Program-made: the position numbers and the translations under genes
Part shown: piece after piece, positions 2 through 9,773 of the stretch
Numbering within the stretch: position 1 is the stretch's first letter
How the letters are laid out: each line of letters opens with the position of its first letter
Source of the DNA: Glaciimonas sp.
GTDB lineage: Bacteria > Pseudomonadota > Gammaproteobacteria > Burkholderiales > Burkholderiaceae_D
Length of the DNA stretch: 64,000 nucleotides
NCBI GenBank assembly: GCA_012927625.1
Contig: JABBOV010000022.1
Location: forward strand, 124,001 to 188,000
Direction: 5' to 3'
The notes under the pieces: generated by a model
Databases searched by the model: none
What the model saw: the letters and a program-made list of their open reading frames with translations, nothing else
Told to the model about the DNA's origin: nothing

Positions 2-2422
2 TGCCCGCTGGAAGCAAAAGCCATACTGCCGACCATGGCCGCCACGCGGGCCGGTTTCAACCGTCTGGAGCAGGAACTGGTAACCAGCCTGGTGCGTGAA
101 AAAGTGGCGACCGTTCTGAGTGAAATCGGCACCAAGGCCCAGTACGTGATCGACATCGTGGTACGCAATCTGTATGAACGTACCGCCGACGTCGGTTTTC
201 TTGCTACCGATAACGCGTTGTGCGCATTCGCCGCCGGGCTGCATGAAAACCAGGATATGATCCGGGCCCGGTTGCGTGCCTACCGCAACAAGTACACCGT
301 CTACGACGAGATCATTTTGCTCGATGTCGCCGGGAACGTTCTGGTGCAGATCGACGACGCCACGCCGCTCGAAGGCAGTGCCGATGCGCTGATTGCACTG
401 ACGTTAGCGTCGGACAGCTATGTTGAAACTTTTCGCGCTAGCGACCTGCGTCCCGGTAAGCGGCAAGCACTGATCTACTCGCGTCGGATGCTGCATCCAG
501 ACACTGGTGCGGTAGTCGGCGTGCTGTGCCTGTGTTTTAACTTCGAGCAGGAAATGGCTGGTATTTTTGCATCGCATCGCGATCCTGCGGGGTGTTCCAA
601 CATGCTGTTGCTGGATGGCGATAATCGCGTCATCGAAAGCGCAGATCCAATCTGGATTCCACTCGGCGCGAAGGTTCCGACCAATCAAAATGGGGTGCCC
701 GAGCTGATGATGTTTGGCGGCCGCGAATACCTGGTGCGAACCTTTGCCGCTAACGGCTATCAGGGTTACATGGGGCCAATCGGTTGGCAGGGGCAAGTCA
801 TGATTCCGGTCGAAATCGCATTTACCGGCGGCGCCAGCAATGCGCTGGAGGGACTAGCCCCGGCAATTTCCGAAGGACTGTTGTCGCATGCCCAATCGTT
901 TTGTCCGCCGCTGTATGAAATCATGACTGCCGCAGAAACGATACGGCGCGTAGTCTGGAACGGTCAGGTAATGACGACCGGTCAGCACGGCGAGTTGCTG
1001 AAACTGAAAACAGTACTGGAGCAGATCAGCGAAACCGGCGTCCGCAGCAACGAGTTGTTTGCCAAGTCCATTAACGACCTGTACCAGACCGTGCTGACAT
1101 CCCGTCTGCGCGATTCCGAGTTCGTCTCGCATCTGCTGGTTGACCTGCTGGATCGCAATTTATTTGAGCGCTCGGATGATTGCCGCTGGTGGGCACTGAC
1201 GCCGGAATTGCGGGCAGCACTGGCCGGCCCCGAGTGCGACTGGGAAACAAACGAGCGCATCAACGGCATTCTGGAATATATCAATCGTCTGTATACGGTG
1301 TACACCCGGATCTTTGTCTATGACGTCAGCGGCTGCATCGTAGCCTGTACCCACCCGCAGCAGGACGGCAGTTCGGTGATTGGCACCAGCATAGATGCCG
1401 TAACGCTGGAACAGGTACGCGCACTACGCACCGAACAGGATTATCACGTCTCGCAATTTACGCCGACGCCGCTGTATGGCGATGCATCGACCTATATTTA
1501 CCATGCCGCGATTCGGGCCCCCGAAGATGAGCGGCTGGTAGTGGGCGGCATTGGCATTGTGTTTGACGCAGCACCTGAATTTTCAGCCATGTTGCACGGC
1601 GCACTGGCGGGCAAAAAAGACACCACCGCATTCTTCATTGATCGCCAGGGCATGGTAATTTCCAGCACAGACCCGAGCCGTCCGGTTGGCGCCAGACTAG
1701 AAATTGACCCAGCCTTGCTGGCGCTGCCGAACGGGGCTAGTGCATCGCGTATCGTGATTCATGATGGGCATTACGCGATCCTGGGCTGTACGGCGTCTTG
1801 CGGTTACCGCGAATTCAAGGTCTCCGATGGTTACCGCGAGGATATGCTGGCTATCGTGTTCGATGCGTTCGGCACCGTGCGCGAACGTAACGGAATGAGC
1901 AGCAAGGCAGAGATCGCAATGACGCCTGATTCGATGGCAAGCAGCGGCCACGAGTTTGCCACTTTTTTTATCGATGGCGCCTTGTTTGGGCTGCCGGCCG
2001 AGTATGCGATGGAGGCATTGCCGGCGTCTGAAGTGTCACCGGTGTCGATGCATGGTCGCGCCGAGCGTATCGGTCTGCTGGCACCGCAGCGGGATAACGA
2101 AAACAAGAATTTCGTGTGGGTGTTCGATCTTGGCCATTTGATTCGCGGCATACCATCGGTGATTGATAACGGTAGTCATGTCATTATCGTGCGCTACGGC
2201 AATCAGACGCTCGGCTTGCTGGTGAGTGAACTGCATGCTGTGCCGCAGTTCAGTGCTGCACAGATTACTCCCACTCCATTTGGCGGCCACGCCGATGGCA
2301 TGCTGGTGACGCAGGTGATCAAGGCCAATGGCGGTCAACTGCTGATTCAGGCGATAGATGTTGCTTATCTATTTAGCAAATTGATGGATAGCGAAAAACC
2401 GGAACCAGCAATTGTTGTCTGA
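2..2422 (+). CDS. CheW-domain chemotaxis protein with two N-terminal Cache-like sensor modules (probably 5' partial)
   Basis: ORF 35..2422; frame stays open to the window start. C-terminus FATFFIDGALFGLPAEYAMEALP...FVWVFDLGHLIRG is CheW-like; two internally similar segments (DRNLFERSDD / RNLYERTADV). Confidence 0.7.
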   Translation, partial: CPLEAKAILPTMAATRAGFNRLEQELVTSLVREKVATVLSEIGTKAQYVIDIVVRNLYERTADVGFLATDNALCAFAAGLHENQDMIRARLRAYRNKYTVYDEIILLDVAGNVLVQIDDATPLEGSADALIALTLASDSYVETFRASDLRPGKRQALIYSRRMLHPDTGAVVGVLCLCFNFEQEMAGIFASHRDPAGCSNMLLLDGDNRVIESADPIWIPLGAKVPTNQNGVPELMMFGGREYLVRTFAANGYQGYMGPIGWQGQVMIPVEIAFTGGASNALEGLAPAISEGLLSHAQSFCPPLYEIMTAAETIRRVVWNGQVMTTGQHGELLKLKTVLEQISETGVRSNELFAKSINDLYQTVLTSRLRDSEFVSHLLVDLLDRNLFERSDDCRWWALTPELRAALAGPECDWETNERINGILEYINRLYTVYTRIFVYDVSGCIVACTHPQQDGSSVIGTSIDAVTLEQVRALRTEQDYHVSQFTPTPLYGDASTYIYHAAIRAPEDERLVVGGIGIVFDAAPEFSAMLHGALAGKKDTTAFFIDRQGMVISSTDPSRPVGARLEIDPALLALPNGASASRIVIHDGHYAILGCTASCGYREFKVSDGYREDMLAIVFDAFGTVRERNGMSSKAEIAMTPDSMASSGHEFATFFIDGALFGLPAEYAMEALPASEVSPVSMHGRAERIGLLAPQRDNENKNFVWVFDLGHLIRGIPSVIDNGSHVIIVRYGNQTLGLLVSELHAVPQFSAAQITPTPFGGHADGMLVTQVIKANGGQLLIQAIDVAYLFSKLMDSEKPEPAIVV

Positions 2423-2771: not shown

Positions 2772-4070
2772 ATGGTCCCGCACCTCGTCACCGCACTGAA
2801 TGGTCCTCTGCTTGAACTGGAGAAGAAAATTCTGGAAGCCACTCCGGCCATTGAACGTTGGTTCCGGCTCGAATGGCAAGAGCACACGCCACCGTTTTAC
2901 TGCTCGGTCGATTTGCGCAATTCTGGCTTTAAGCTGGCACCGGTAGATACCAATCTGTTTCCTGGCGGCTTCAACAACCTCGCCACTGAAATGCTGCCGC
3001 TGGCGGTGCAAGCGGCGATGGCGGCGATCGAGAAGTATTGTCCAGACGCGAAAAACCTGCTGCTGATTCCCGAGCGCCATACTCGTAACACCTTTTATCT
3101 GCAAAACATCGTGCGGTTGATCCAGATTTTCCATCAGGCCGGTCTGAATGTGCGCTTGGGCACCTTTGCCGAGGACGTCACAGAGCCGACCCCGATTGCG
3201 CTGCCGGACGGTACCATGTTGATGCTGGAGCCGCTGGAGCGCACCCATAACGGGCGCCGGGTCGGCCTGAAGAATTTCGATCCATGCACGATTTTGCTCA
3301 ACAACGATCTGTCGGCCGGCCTACCGGCTATCCTGGCCGATTTGCATGAACAGACTCTGCTGCCGCCATTGCATGCCGGCTGGGCAGTGCGGCGCAAAAC
3401 CAACCACTTCGGCGCCTATAACGATGTTGCCAAGAAGTTCGCCAAGCTAATCGACATCGACCCGTGGATGATCAACCCGTATTTTGCCAAGTGTTCCAAC
3501 ATCAATTTTCATGAGCGCATCGGCGAAGACTGCCTGGCCACTAACGTCGATGCAGTACTGGCTAAAATTCGCAAAAAGTACAAGGAATACGGCATCAAAG
3601 ACAAGCCGTTCGTGATTGTAAAGGCTGATGCCGGTACCTACGGTATGGGCATCATGACCGTTACCGACGCCAGCGAAATCGTCGGCTTGAATCGCAAGCA
3701 GCGCAACAAGATGTCGGTTGTCAAGGAAGGGCTGGAAGTATCCGACGTAATCATCCAGGAAGGCGTGCATTCGTTCGAGAACATTAACGAAGCGGTTGCC
3801 GAGCCGGTGGTCTACATGATTGACCGCTATGTGGTCGGCGGCTTCTACCGGGTTCACGCCGAGCGTGGCATCAATGAAAATCTGAATGCGCCGGGCGCGC
3901 ATTACGTGCCTCTGGCGTTCGAGCAACAACACAGCTTGCCGGACTTTTCGGCCAAACCGGGCACTACGTCGCCGAACCGCTTCTACATGTACGGTGTAGT
4001 GGCACGGCTAGCCTTGCTGTCGGCCTCGCTCGAGCTGGAACGAACCGACCCCAACCCAGAAATCTATTAA
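2772..4070 (+). CDS. gshA: Glutamate-cysteine ligase (proteobacterial GshA type)
   Basis: MVPHLVTALNGPLLELEKKILEATPAIERWFRLEWQEHTPPFYCSVDLRN; immediately upstream of gshB; internal ATG preferred over the track start. Confidence 0.88.
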   Translation: MVPHLVTALNGPLLELEKKILEATPAIERWFRLEWQEHTPPFYCSVDLRNSGFKLAPVDTNLFPGGFNNLATEMLPLAVQAAMAAIEKYCPDAKNLLLIPERHTRNTFYLQNIVRLIQIFHQAGLNVRLGTFAEDVTEPTPIALPDGTMLMLEPLERTHNGRRVGLKNFDPCTILLNNDLSAGLPAILADLHEQTLLPPLHAGWAVRRKTNHFGAYNDVAKKFAKLIDIDPWMINPYFAKCSNINFHERIGEDCLATNVDAVLAKIRKKYKEYGIKDKPFVIVKADAGTYGMGIMTVTDASEIVGLNRKQRNKMSVVKEGLEVSDVIIQEGVHSFENINEAVAEPVVYMIDRYVVGGFYRVHAERGINENLNAPGAHYVPLAFEQQHSLPDFSAKPGTTSPNRFYMYGVVARLALLSASLELERTDPNPEIY

Positions 4071-6029: not shown

Positions 6030-7793
6030 ATGGCATCTTTTTCGCTCCACGGCTTTCCGGTTTCCCGCGGCATTGCCGTGGGCCGTGCCCACTTGCTCAC
6101 GCCCGCTGCGCTGGACGTAAAACATTATCTGGTCGGCCAGACTCAGGTGGAAGCCGAAGTACGGCGCCTGCAAAACGCGTTTGCCGTGGTGCACCAGGAA
6201 CTGCGCACTATTTGGGAAGAACTGCCGGCGGACGCGCCGGCCGAGCTGGGCGCGTTCATCGATATCCATATTCTGATCCTGTCCGACCCGATGCTGGCAG
6301 AAGAGCCGCTGGATATCATCCGCAGCCGCCACTACAACGCCGAATGGGCGCTGGTGACCCAGATCGACGAGTTGATCGACCAGTTCAATGAGATTGAAGA
6401 CCCCTATTTGCGCGACCGCAAAGCCGATATCTGGCAAGTAGCAGAGCGCGTCTTGAAAGTATTGACCGGCACCGCCCAGATATTGCCGGCGCCGGGTGAC
6501 GACGACGAAGCACAGGCCCGCCTGATCGTGGTCGCACATGACATTTCGCCAGCCGACATGCTGCAGTTTCGCAATCACGCCTTCAGCGGCATCGTCACCG
6601 ATGTCGGCGGGCAGAATTCGCATACGGCGCTGGTGGCCCGTAGTCTGGACATTCCGGCCGCAGTCGGCCTGTCGAATGCCTCGCTGCTTATCAGGCAGGA
6701 TGACTGGCTGATCATCGATGGGACTACCGGCGTGGTTATGGTCAATCCGAGCCAGATGATGCTGGATGAGTATCGCGACACGCAGGCCAAAATCCAGCGC
6801 GAACGTAAAAAACTCAGCAAACTCAAGAAAACCCCGACCGTCACTCTCGACGGCACTGTTGTTACCTTGTTAGCCAACATCGAACTGCCGGAAGATTGCG
6901 CGGCGGCGATGGAGGTCGGCGCCAACGGCATTGGCCTGTTCCGCTCCGAGTTTTTGTTCATGGAGCATAGCGGCCACGCCAGCACGCTGCCATCCGAAGA
7001 ACAACAATTCGACGCCTATCGGCGCGCTGTAGGCGCAATGAAGGGCCGGCCGGTAACGATACGCACGCTCGATATCGGGGCTGACAAACGATTGGCCGGC
7101 TTCGAGCAGAGCGCGATCAATCCGGCGCTGGGCCTGCGCGCGATTCGCTATTGCATGGCCGAGCCGCAATTGTTCCTGACCCAGTTGCGCGCGATCCTGC
7201 GCGCCTCCGCTTTTGGCCCGGTCAAATTGTTGATTCCAATGCTATCGCACAGTTTCGAGGTGACCCAGACTTTGGCCATGATCAACCAGGCCAAAGCGCA
7301 ACTAATCAAGGCCGGCCAGAAATTCGATGCCGATCTCCAGATCGGCGCCATGATCGAAGTGCCGGCGGCAGCGCTGACGCTGCCGACGTTCATCCGGCAC
7401 CTGGATTTCCTGTCGATTGGCACCAACGACCTGATCCAGTACACGCTGGCGATCGACCGCTCAGACCACGAGGTGGCTCATCTGTATGACCCGATGCATC
7501 CTGCCGTGCTAATGCTGCTGGCAATGACGGTGGCGGCAGCCGCCAAGGCTGACATCCCGGTCTCGATTTGCGGCGGCATGGCGGGCGACGCCAAGCTGAC
7601 CCTGCTGCTGTTGGGCATGGGTTTTCGTGAATTGTCGATGCCGGCGGCGCAACTGCTGTCGGTCAAGCAGGAAGTGCTGGGCTGCGATCTGGAGCGCGTC
7701 ACGCCGCTGGTCAGAAAAATTCTGCGCAGCGACGACCCCGCGGCCATCAAGCAGATGATTAGCCAGCTGGCCGATGCGACAGCCGTCGTTTGA
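6030..7793 (+). CDS. ptsI: Phosphoenolpyruvate-protein phosphotransferase (EI)
   Basis: GIVTDVGGQNSHTALVARSLDIPAAVG; SIGTNDLIQYTLAIDR; ICGGMAGD. Confidence 0.95.
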   Translation: MASFSLHGFPVSRGIAVGRAHLLTPAALDVKHYLVGQTQVEAEVRRLQNAFAVVHQELRTIWEELPADAPAELGAFIDIHILILSDPMLAEEPLDIIRSRHYNAEWALVTQIDELIDQFNEIEDPYLRDRKADIWQVAERVLKVLTGTAQILPAPGDDDEAQARLIVVAHDISPADMLQFRNHAFSGIVTDVGGQNSHTALVARSLDIPAAVGLSNASLLIRQDDWLIIDGTTGVVMVNPSQMMLDEYRDTQAKIQRERKKLSKLKKTPTVTLDGTVVTLLANIELPEDCAAAMEVGANGIGLFRSEFLFMEHSGHASTLPSEEQQFDAYRRAVGAMKGRPVTIRTLDIGADKRLAGFEQSAINPALGLRAIRYCMAEPQLFLTQLRAILRASAFGPVKLLIPMLSHSFEVTQTLAMINQAKAQLIKAGQKFDADLQIGAMIEVPAAALTLPTFIRHLDFLSIGTNDLIQYTLAIDRSDHEVAHLYDPMHPAVLMLLAMTVAAAAKADIPVSICGGMAGDAKLTLLLLGMGFRELSMPAAQLLSVKQEVLGCDLERVTPLVRKILRSDDPAAIKQMISQLADATAVV

Positions 7794-7825
7794 CGATACC
7801 GGCAGAGTTGGTTATTCTTGTTGCC

Positions 7826-7917
7826 GTTGCGCCGATTTGATGTCAGCTTGCGGGCGCAGGGGAAAATCAGCCGAGCAAACTCTCGGCGCGCCTCTCCAAA
7901 TACGGCTAAAGCTGCTT
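7826..7917 (+). promoter_or_regulatory. SAM-II-like riboswitch with extra internal hairpin, upstream of metX
   Basis: P1 TGCGCC(7828-7833)/GGCGCA(7853-7858); conserved-looking GATTTG...CTTGC loop; hairpin GCCGAG(7870-7875)/CTCGGC(7882-7887); 3' GGCTAAAGCTG with AGCTG complementary to loop CAGCT. Confidence 0.72.
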
Positions 7918-7941
7918 GCAGAAATCCATGAGCGATGATTT

Positions 7942-7975
7942 AGCCCGATGAGCGGATTGCTATCGGGCTTTTTTG
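7942..7975 (+). terminator. Intrinsic terminator between the riboswitch and metX
   Basis: AGCCCGAT (7942-7949) / ATCGGGCT (7962-7969) followed by a T run. Confidence 0.8.
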
Positions 7976-8046
7976 TATCTGAAATTTTTTTGACCCACGG
8001 CGTCAGGCTGCAACACACTGCAAACTGCGCCCTAATATTGCATACC

Positions 8047-9174
8047 ATGTCATCCCTTGGAATCGTTACCCCGCAATCGATGCACTTTGCCGCGCCGCTC
8101 GCCTTGCAGAGCGGCGCGGCGATTGCCGAATACACCCTGACCTATGAAACCTACGGCAGCCTGAATGCCGCACGCTCGAATGCGGTGCTGGTCTGCCACG
8201 CGCTCAACGCTTCGCACCATGTGGCCGGCGTGTATGCCGACCAGCCAAAAAACGCCGGCTGGTGGGACAACATGGTGGGGCCGGGCAAGGCGCTCGACAC
8301 TAACCAGTTCTTTGTCATCGGTGTCAACAATCTGGGCTCTTGCTTCGGCTCGACCGGCCCGATGCACACCAATCCGGCCACCGGCAGGCCGTACGGCGCG
8401 GCGTTCCCGGTGGTCACGGTGGAAGACTGGGTCAATGCGCAGGCGCTGCTGGCCGACGCGCTCGGCATCAGCCAGTTTGCGGCGGTGATGGGCGGTTCGC
8501 TGGGCGGCATGCAGGCGCTGGCCTGGAGCATCATGTATCCGGCCCGGCTGCGGCACTGCATCATTATTGCCTCCACCCCGACATTGTCGGCGCAGAATAT
8601 CGCGTTCAACGATGTGGCGCGGCAAGCGATTCTGACCGACCCCGATTTTCACGGCGGCGATTATTACGCGCACGGCGTGGTACCCAAAAACGGCCTGTCG
8701 GTAGCCCGCATGATCGGCCACATCACCTATCTGTCGGACGACGACATGGCCGAGAAATTCGGCCGCGGCTTGCGTAATGGCGCTTACCAGTTCAGCTTCG
8801 GCGTCGACTTCGAGATCGAATCCTATCTGCGCTATCAAGGCTTGAAGTTTTCTGAATACTTTGATGCCAACACCTATCTGTTGATCACCAAGGCGCTCGA
8901 TTATTTCGACCCAGCGCGTTTGTGCGGCGGCGATTTGACCTGTGCGCTGGCAAACACCCAAGCGCAGTTTCTGTTGGTGTCATTTTCGACCGACTGGCGC
9001 TTTGCACCCGCACGCAGCCGCGAAATGGTGCAGGCGCTGGTCAACAACAAGCGCCGCGTGATCTATGCCGAAATCGATGCGCCGCACGGCCATGACGCTT
9101 TTTTGCTGGAAGATCCGCGCTACCACGATCTGGTGCGCGCCTATTACGAGCGCGTCGCCCGGGAGTGCGCATGA
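8047..9174 (+). CDS. metX: Homoserine O-acyltransferase MetX
   Basis: [26 protein letters not shown]...[19 protein letters not shown]; metW follows; start set to ATG 8047. Confidence 0.95.
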
Positions 9175-9773
9175 ATTTCAATCAACTCAGCGTACTGCGC
9201 CCCGACCTGGCCTTCATTGCACATTGGATCAAGCCGAGCGCGCACATTCTCGACGTCGGTTGCGGCGATGGCGTGATGCTGGATTATTTGCAGACCGATA
9301 AAAAGTGCAGCGGCTACGGCATTGAAATCGCCGACGACAAGATTTTAGCCAGCACCCAGCGCGGCATCAACGTGATCCAGCAAGACATGGAAAACGGCTT
9401 GGCGATTTTTGCCGACAAAGCCTTCGATACCGTATTGTGCCTATCGTCGCTGCAGATGATGGTCAATGTGGAGGCCATCTTGCGCGACATTGCCCGGGTC
9501 GGGCGCGAAGCGATCGTCTCCTTTCCTAATTTCGCCTATTGGCCGCATCGCCTGGCCCTGATCGGCGGGCGCATGCCGGTTTCCAAATTATTGCCGTACG
9601 AATGGTATGACACCCCGAATATCCGTTGCGCCACTATTGTTGACTTCGAAGCACTGGCCGACCAGGTCGGGCTGCAAGTAATCGAATGCGTGGCGCTGCA
9701 CGATGGCAAACCGGTGACTTTTCTGCCCAACTGGCGCGGCAATCTGGCAGTGTTCCGGCTCAAGAAAAAATGA
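9171..9773 (+). CDS. metW: Methionine biosynthesis protein MetW
   Basis: [27 protein letters not shown]; overlaps the metX stop. Confidence 0.94.

Follow-up and report, generated by a model that had tools for sequence, protein, structure and literature searches.

The DNA analysed here (the window) is a 64-kb stretch of a 3.8 Mb genome from the GTDB order that holds the former Betaproteobacteria. Within it, a leader on the forward strand sits between ptsI, which ends at 7793, and metX-metW (8047-9773), and carries a SAM-II-type H-pseudoknot at 7828-7914 followed by an intrinsic terminator. Both downstream genes passed their NCBIfam cut-offs, in agreement with the initial annotation, which had named metXW as the target gene pair. 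Read 5' to 3' on the plus strand, the leader consists of the promoter, P1, L1, the P2 5' strand, the P3 hairpin, AAAU, the P2 3' strand and the terminator. The individual features are as follows:

7790..7818, +, sigma70-like promoter TTGACG-N17-TATTCT, overlapping the ptsI stop codon
7828..7833, +, P1 5' strand TGCGCC, pairing with 7853-7858
7834..7843, +, L1, with G8 at 7834 and U10, U11 and U12 at 7836-7838 (SAM-II crystal numbering)
7844..7851, +, P2 5' strand CAGCTTGC, with U20, U21, G22 and C23 at 7848-7851, pairing with 7905-7914
7853..7858, +, P1 3' strand GGCGCA, read directly
7859..7897, +, P3, hairpin inserted in L3 as found by folding, with an outer and an inner stem between P1 and AAAU
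7898..7901, +, AAAU of L3, conserved in most relatives
7904..7910, +, candidate antiterminator strand 1, GGCTAAA, overlapping the P2 3' strand and forming seven perfect pairs with 7939-7945
7905..7914, +, P2 3' strand GCTAAAGCTG, with G42, C43, U44, A45, A46 and A47 at 7905-7910
7939..7945, +, candidate antiterminator strand 2, TTTAGCC, overlapping the terminator 5' arm, a 7-mer that recurs in relatives
7942..7974, +, intrinsic terminator, stem AGCCCGAT (7942-7949) with ATCGGGCT (7962-7969), and six T at 7969-7974
8047..9174, +, metX, homoserine O-succinyltransferase type, the putative controlled gene (NF047916 MetX_succinyl, 672.8 bits, cut-off 560)
9165..9773, +, metW, overlapping the end of metX (TIGR02081 metW, 238.5 bits, cut-off 189.5)

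The promoter is the only promoter-like site in 7700-8100, with none 3' of the terminator. It ends 9 nt before P1, which implies a transcription start at the 5' edge of P1. The same spacing is common among related elements: 82 of 142 have a promoter-like site matching at least 9 of 12 positions, with the -10 end most often 5-9 nt 5' of P1, and SAM-II was described with a promoter just ahead of P1 (Corbino 2005, PMC1273637). No Shine-Dalgarno-like sequence was evident on direct reading of the DNA ahead of metX.

The aptamer core

A SAM-II-like aptamer had been proposed at this position, and the nucleotides of its core bear the proposal out. P1 was found exactly as described earlier (TGCGCC/GGCGCA); it is 94% paired over 89 distinct sequences and covaries, with double changes at four of its six pairs. 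Both motifs of the loop that follows were also as first noted (GATTTG at 7834-7839 and AGCTTGC at 7845-7851), the spacer between them being five nucleotides (ATGTC) and not six. The pseudoknot pairing AGCTG/CAGCT stands as well, with a P2 longer than originally given: CAGC (7844-7847) pairs with GCTG (7911-7914), TT (7848-7849) with AA (7908-7909), and GC (7850-7851) with GC (7905-7906). Read directly, the sequence from AAAU to the end of P2 is AAATACGGCTAAAGCTG (7898-7914). In the same 89 sequences P2 is 91.5% paired, and its outer part covaries. P1 and P2 together gave 129 double-change cells in these 89 sequences versus 52.9 in shuffles, and versus 6-28, where any occur, when the partner strand was slid by up to three columns; relatedness among the sequences inflates these shuffle and covariation statistics.

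In SAM-II, the nucleotides U10, U11, U12, U20, U21, G22, C23, G42, C43, U44, A45, A46 and A47 are completely conserved, U11 and U21 contact the sulfonium, and A36/A37 of L3 make A-minor contacts with P1 (PMC3764141). All 13 pocket nucleotides are present in the metX copy (7836-7838, 7848-7851 and 7905-7910) and are invariant across the alignment of 23 relatives; GCTAAAG is invariant in alignment A2 of compact relatives. The AAAU at 7898-7901 lies at the distance from G42 expected for SAM-II and, judging by its position, would be expected to make A-minor contacts with P1. Single-sequence folding of 7826-7980, which was done without the pseudoknot, was unremarkable (z of -0.53), so the SAM-II case rests on comparison and not on folding energy.

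Covariance-model searches

Rfam models run at their own cut-offs gave no match in the whole 64-kb window. With permissive settings, RF00521 (SAM-II) aligned only with P1 and its loop (16.6 bits, E=0.33, cut-off 36); it misses the metX copy because of the extra hairpin between P1 and the AAAU of L3. The best Rfam match at this locus was given by RF02424 on the minus strand (30.2 bits, E=6.5e-5), below its 70-bit threshold. RF01726, the model for SAM-II with long loops that the initial annotation had suggested as a check, produced no match in 7600-8200 up to E=10 and none in the other scanned loci up to E=1, and the element does not belong to that family.

RF02424 matched in 29 of 150 genomes of the order, and these matches were the route to the first relatives. 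Most relatives are compact, with the arrangement GCGCC-GATTTGA-N-CAGCTTGC-GGGCGC-~11 nt-GCTAAAG, and such compact forms scored 44.3, 43.1, 41.8, 41.7, 41.7, 40.5 and 36.9 bits with RF00521 (cut-off 36), the best reaching 52.5 bits. The RF00521 cut-off was passed in 26 of 150 order genomes, the genome of the window not among them. We built a covariance model (R1) from 23 relatives with the window copy left out, and it found that copy at 44.1 bits (E=5.3e-9) in a search of the whole genome. Taken alone, the RF00521 score had gone against the proposed family; the compact relatives and R1 overturn that failure. By topology, pocket and descent, the predicted element is a SAM-II riboswitch, in a hairpin-insert form that Rfam's model rejects.

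R1 matches were obtained in 304 of 399 genomes of the order, 59 of 60 of the family and 134 of 274 of the class. A near relative of the window's leader occurs in an Oxalobacteraceae assembly (L226). One genome of the class (G694) has ten R1 matches, several of them scoring alike, where one to three are usual; the element may have spread there with a repeat. Two weak model matches in the window's own genome (L093 and L094) were discarded since the core is absent, and the first entries of L047 and L002 in the scripted element list are chance or offset matches.

A hairpin inserted in L3

The initial annotation had noticed an extra hairpin, GCCGAG-CAAACT-CTCGGC. It is present and larger than reported: to the inner stem (GCCGAG 7870-7875/CTCGGC 7882-7887) is added an outer stem, GGGGA 7859-7863/TCTCC 7893-7897, that directly abuts P1. 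The L3 of the window copy is thereby about 45 nt long versus about 11 nt in compact SAM-II. Among 96 metX-type elements, L3 measures 6-13 nt in 66 and 21-45 nt in 30, and a pattern scan for long L3 across 84,980 species genomes returned at least 115 stretches. Among the matches listed, these came from Undibacterium, Methyloversatilis, Legionella, Piscirickettsia, Hydrogenovibrio, Thiomicrospira and many uncultured Betaproteobacteria.

Among the same listed matches, 79 distinct inserts (78 from relatives and that of the window) all fold as hairpins starting 0-3 nt after P1. Their mean folding z is -3.22, with 67 equalling or surpassing 95% of their own shuffles, and the hairpin is maintained while the insert sequences are strongly divergent. 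The window's own insert taken by itself is only mildly better than its shuffles (z -1.74); the hairpin claim is thus carried by the comparison. On this comparative ground, the form with an L3 hairpin is a recurring SAM-II variant. Separately, a second insertion site was seen, with hairpin-like expansions of L1 between GATTTGA and CAGCTTGC (L114, L117, L127, L128, L135, L136 and L146).

The first nucleotides of L3 leave P1 at its end away from the pocket (PMC3764141), so a hairpin there could stack on P1 with the binding site untouched. P3 would replace the first few nucleotides of L3 and abut P1, leaving the pocket and the A-rich stretch of L3 intact. To judge by its sequence and placement, P3 is most likely a tolerated expansion; it may also aid folding or timing.

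Terminator and candidate antiterminator

The strong terminator placed earlier between the aptamer and metX is indeed there, at 7942-7974, with a hairpin of -16.3 kcal/mol. Its loop exceeds 8 nt, which puts it outside the automated terminator scan, and it was found by reading and with a custom script. Terminators follow 92 of 96 metX-type elements. In the window, the P2 3' strand overlaps one strand of a candidate antiterminator and the terminator 5' arm overlaps the other, and we looked for such complementarity in the 92 terminator regions. At least 6 nt complementary to the P2 3' strand occurred in 30 of them (shuffles: mean 7.1, max 16) and at least 6 nt complementary to the P2 5' strand in 25 (shuffles: mean 5.9, max 13); complementarity of this length to either P2 strand was limited to 49 of the 92. 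In addition, the base preceding GCUAAA and that following UUAGC covary, being complementary in 21 of 34 cases versus 11.3 when permuted. The P1 strands were rejected as antiterminator partners, their complementarity being at or below the shuffle expectation. The recurrence of the candidate pairing across species supports the earlier proposal that metXW is controlled by termination.

In stepwise folding of the growing transcript, without pseudoknot or SAM, the probability of the antiterminator pairing was mostly 0.7-0.9 for ends at 7945-7965, dipping to 0.32 at 7963, and that of the terminator exceeded 0.95 from 7969 on. At equilibrium, on the other hand, the terminator was favoured whether the aptamer was held or free, which requires the switch to act kinetically. 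A kinetic choice is usual for such riboswitches.

Under the mechanism that we propose, transcription would start at the 5' edge of P1 and the aptamer would form from P1 and the pseudoknot P2 (CAGCUUGC with GCUAAAGCUG). SAM would be bound between L1 and P2, in the pocket recognized by nucleotide identity. With SAM, GGCUAAA would be held in P2, the emerging UUUAGCC would stay unpaired with it, the terminator at 7942-7974 would form, and metXW would be off. Without SAM, pairing of GGCUAAA with UUUAGCC would block the terminator 5' arm long enough for the polymerase to pass, a step derived from sequence, conservation and stepwise folding. The sequence, its homology and covariation, the terminator, the promoter and the gene context are established here, whereas SAM binding, the direction of control, the kinetic switching and the role of P3 we infer.

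A different arrangement was observed in Undibacterium (L158, L160, L166, L170, L173, L182 and others), where the aptamer with an L3 hairpin has no clear terminator. After UUUAGCC these leaders have UUCC, which is complementary to the GGAAG ahead of the start codon. This UUUAGCC beside a stretch complementary to the Shine-Dalgarno sequence suggests that one switching helix may serve both platforms, transcriptional and translational.

Related leaders and their genes

As judged by signature motifs, the elements precede metX, metZ, metH, metY, metK and metN; the gene identities were checked with NCBIfam for the window and for the two further copies in its own genome:

L091, 502-568 (G000:C25), +, metH (methionine synthase) leader with a different L3 hairpin and its own terminator
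L092, 1501-1557 (G000:C14:355699-355755), -, metK leader with U10 changed to G (GAGUUAA) and no terminator seen

The U10-to-G change is shared by L092 and 33 other metK-type leaders (e.g. L103, L110 and L137), in which P1 covaries and no terminator was seen. For 19 of these 34 metK leaders of the family, versus 1.7 in shuffles, the stretch after GCUAAA is complementary over at least 6 nt to the Shine-Dalgarno region, which points to control of translation. Four metK-type leaders scanned with Rfam gave no match up to E=1, and the affinity or the ligand of the U10-to-G form may differ. The change is not confined to metK: two metX-type elements, L076 and L124, one of them before metH, also have it (GAGTTGA).

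Near metK, an SAH riboswitch (RF01057) occurs at 2934-3012 (+) of L006 and at 72-158 (-) of L092, with the SAM-II-type leader in the same gene neighbourhood. Tandem SAM-II elements were seen at six loci (L003, L008, L013, L024, L058 and L109). Behind the first element comes a terminator, and near a start codon lies the second, which is of the GATTTAA / GATTTAT..TTGC[GA]G type; this suggests that one ligand could control transcription and then translation.

Comparison with known elements

With SAM-II (SAM_alpha, RF00521; PMC1273637; structure 2QWY via PMC3764141), the window element shares P1 and the H-type P2, the 13 pocket nucleotides and G8, the A-rich end of L3, a promoter just before P1, a terminator after P2 and met genes downstream. 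It departs from that family in its L3 of about 45 nt, with a two-part hairpin abutting P1, and in its score below the Rfam cut-off. SAM-II long loops (RF01726), known from Bacteroidetes and marine samples (Weinberg 2010, PMC2864571), are by name also SAM-II variants with enlarged loops; the lack of a match to their model up to E=10 sets the window element apart. Among the relatives, the SAM-II/SAM-II pairs recall the tandem SAM-II/SAM-V of Candidatus Pelagibacter, for which action at transcription and translation was proposed (PMC11508383), whereas the window copy is single and no SAM-V match was seen.

The passages of Leyn 2014 (PMC4239095) drawn on here describe a metXZ element upstream of metXW or metZ in Betaproteobacteria, presented as new and with its ligand unknown. 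It has six conserved regions, a pseudoknot between regions 1-4 and 2-6 and a downstream terminator, and occurs once per genome in most genomes studied. The same passages give terminator-antiterminator control, with regions 3 and 4 proposed for the antiterminator, and place SAM_alpha only in Rhizobiales and Rhodobacterales. Compared with this text description, the architecture, target and lineage agree, and the metXZ element and the window element are, on that description, almost certainly the same RNA. What differs from the described metXZ element is that ours is identified with SAM-II and that the switching strand in the window copy is the P2 3' strand.

The locus has also been listed as the sRNA candidate Bp2_Cand287_SIPHT, for which a cis-acting role in methionine metabolism was suggested (Khoo 2012, PMC3521395). 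The Rfam family derived from it, Bp2_287 (RF02424), coincides with our element in locus and in conserved sequence, close to metZ or metX in Burkholderiales, and differs in lying on the opposite strand and in being typed as an sRNA gene. Its match covers 7795-7973 (-) of the window. The family represents a SAM-II leader and the terminator behind it in reverse complement, and both its strand and its typing as an sRNA look mistaken. The metXZ element and RF02424, two orphan annotations, both seem to be accounted for by this one element. No SAM-II variants from Betaproteobacteria came up in a literature search, and within the incomplete coverage of that search no paper was found that joins SAM-II, the metXZ element and RF02424 or that describes the L3 hairpin.

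Alternative explanations

The terminator might do nothing more than end the upstream ptsI operon, with metX transcribed from a later promoter of its own and an aptamer-like RNA exerting no control over it. Indeed ptsI, ending 150 nt upstream, needs an end, and with no evident Shine-Dalgarno sequence before metX its transcript is not fully explained. However, the sole promoter-like site of the region precedes the element, element and terminator are retained together at many loci before different met genes, and complementarity to the pseudoknot strands is found in the terminators more often than chance would give, which leaves this explanation unlikely. Alternatively, the fold could be that of SAM-II with a changed ligand, for instance S-adenosylhomocysteine or another adenosyl compound. 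Ligand changes by a few substitutions are known in other riboswitch classes, and the metK paralog does have U10 replaced by G. The metX copy, in contrast, has a fully canonical pocket, including the sulfonium contacts U11 and U21 as well as U44 and A47; a separate SAH riboswitch lies beside metK in the same genome; and the SAM-II of A. tumefaciens showed no structure modulation at 1 mM SAH (PMC1273637). We consider a changed ligand very unlikely for the metX copy.

Another reading, the one modelled by RF02424, places the functional RNA on the minus strand, where it would be a small RNA acting in trans or as antisense. That family is the best Rfam match here and has matches in 29 of 150 order genomes, and an RT-PCR product was obtained for Bp2_Cand287 (Khoo 2012). 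That experiment, though, used oligo(dT)-primed cDNA and ordinary PCR, so that the strand was not established, and its authors themselves proposed a cis-acting element of methionine metabolism. The RF02424 model takes the entire unit in reverse complement, starting with AAAAAGCCCG, the complement of the terminator 3' arm and T-run, which gives it a 5' run of A, while the promoter and the T-run are on the plus strand. Furthermore, the G-U pairs of P1 (15 of 89 sequences at the outermost pair) would become A-C mismatches on the minus strand. A minus-strand RNA is in our estimation very improbable. Against these three, we hold it to be highly probable that the element is a cis-acting SAM-II variant which turns metX-metW off by transcription termination.

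Implications

The small RNA ahead of metX-metW is very probably a sensor of S-adenosylmethionine that halts transcription at high levels of this compound. As predicted from their sequences, many related bacteria carry similar switches, and the extra hairpin keeps the window copy from being recognized by the standard RNA database. Many of these switches escape annotation with the current Rfam model: the RF00521 cut-off is passed in 26 of 150 order genomes, compared with R1 matches in 304 of 399 of the same order.

A more far-reaching reading, which we put forward tentatively and hold to be rather doubtful as a whole, is that P3 is a functional component found again and again across an extensive, largely unannotated SAM-II branch in Gammaproteobacteria (in GTDB including the former Betaproteobacteria), where it would tune co-transcriptional folding or bind a second partner. 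The same branch would have given rise to the U10-to-G metK version, perhaps with a shifted affinity or ligand, and so to graded SAM sensors on metX, metH and metK in one genome.

A hairpin of any sequence in L3, a loop whose strand lies in the P1 groove, gives a measure of how far the fold can be extended with the pocket untouched, and its site would lend itself to the attachment of engineered switches. If the metXZ element and the mis-stranded RF02424 were merged into SAM-II, many Betaproteobacteria and Gammaproteobacteria would gain a SAM-controlled methionine regulon that can be tested.
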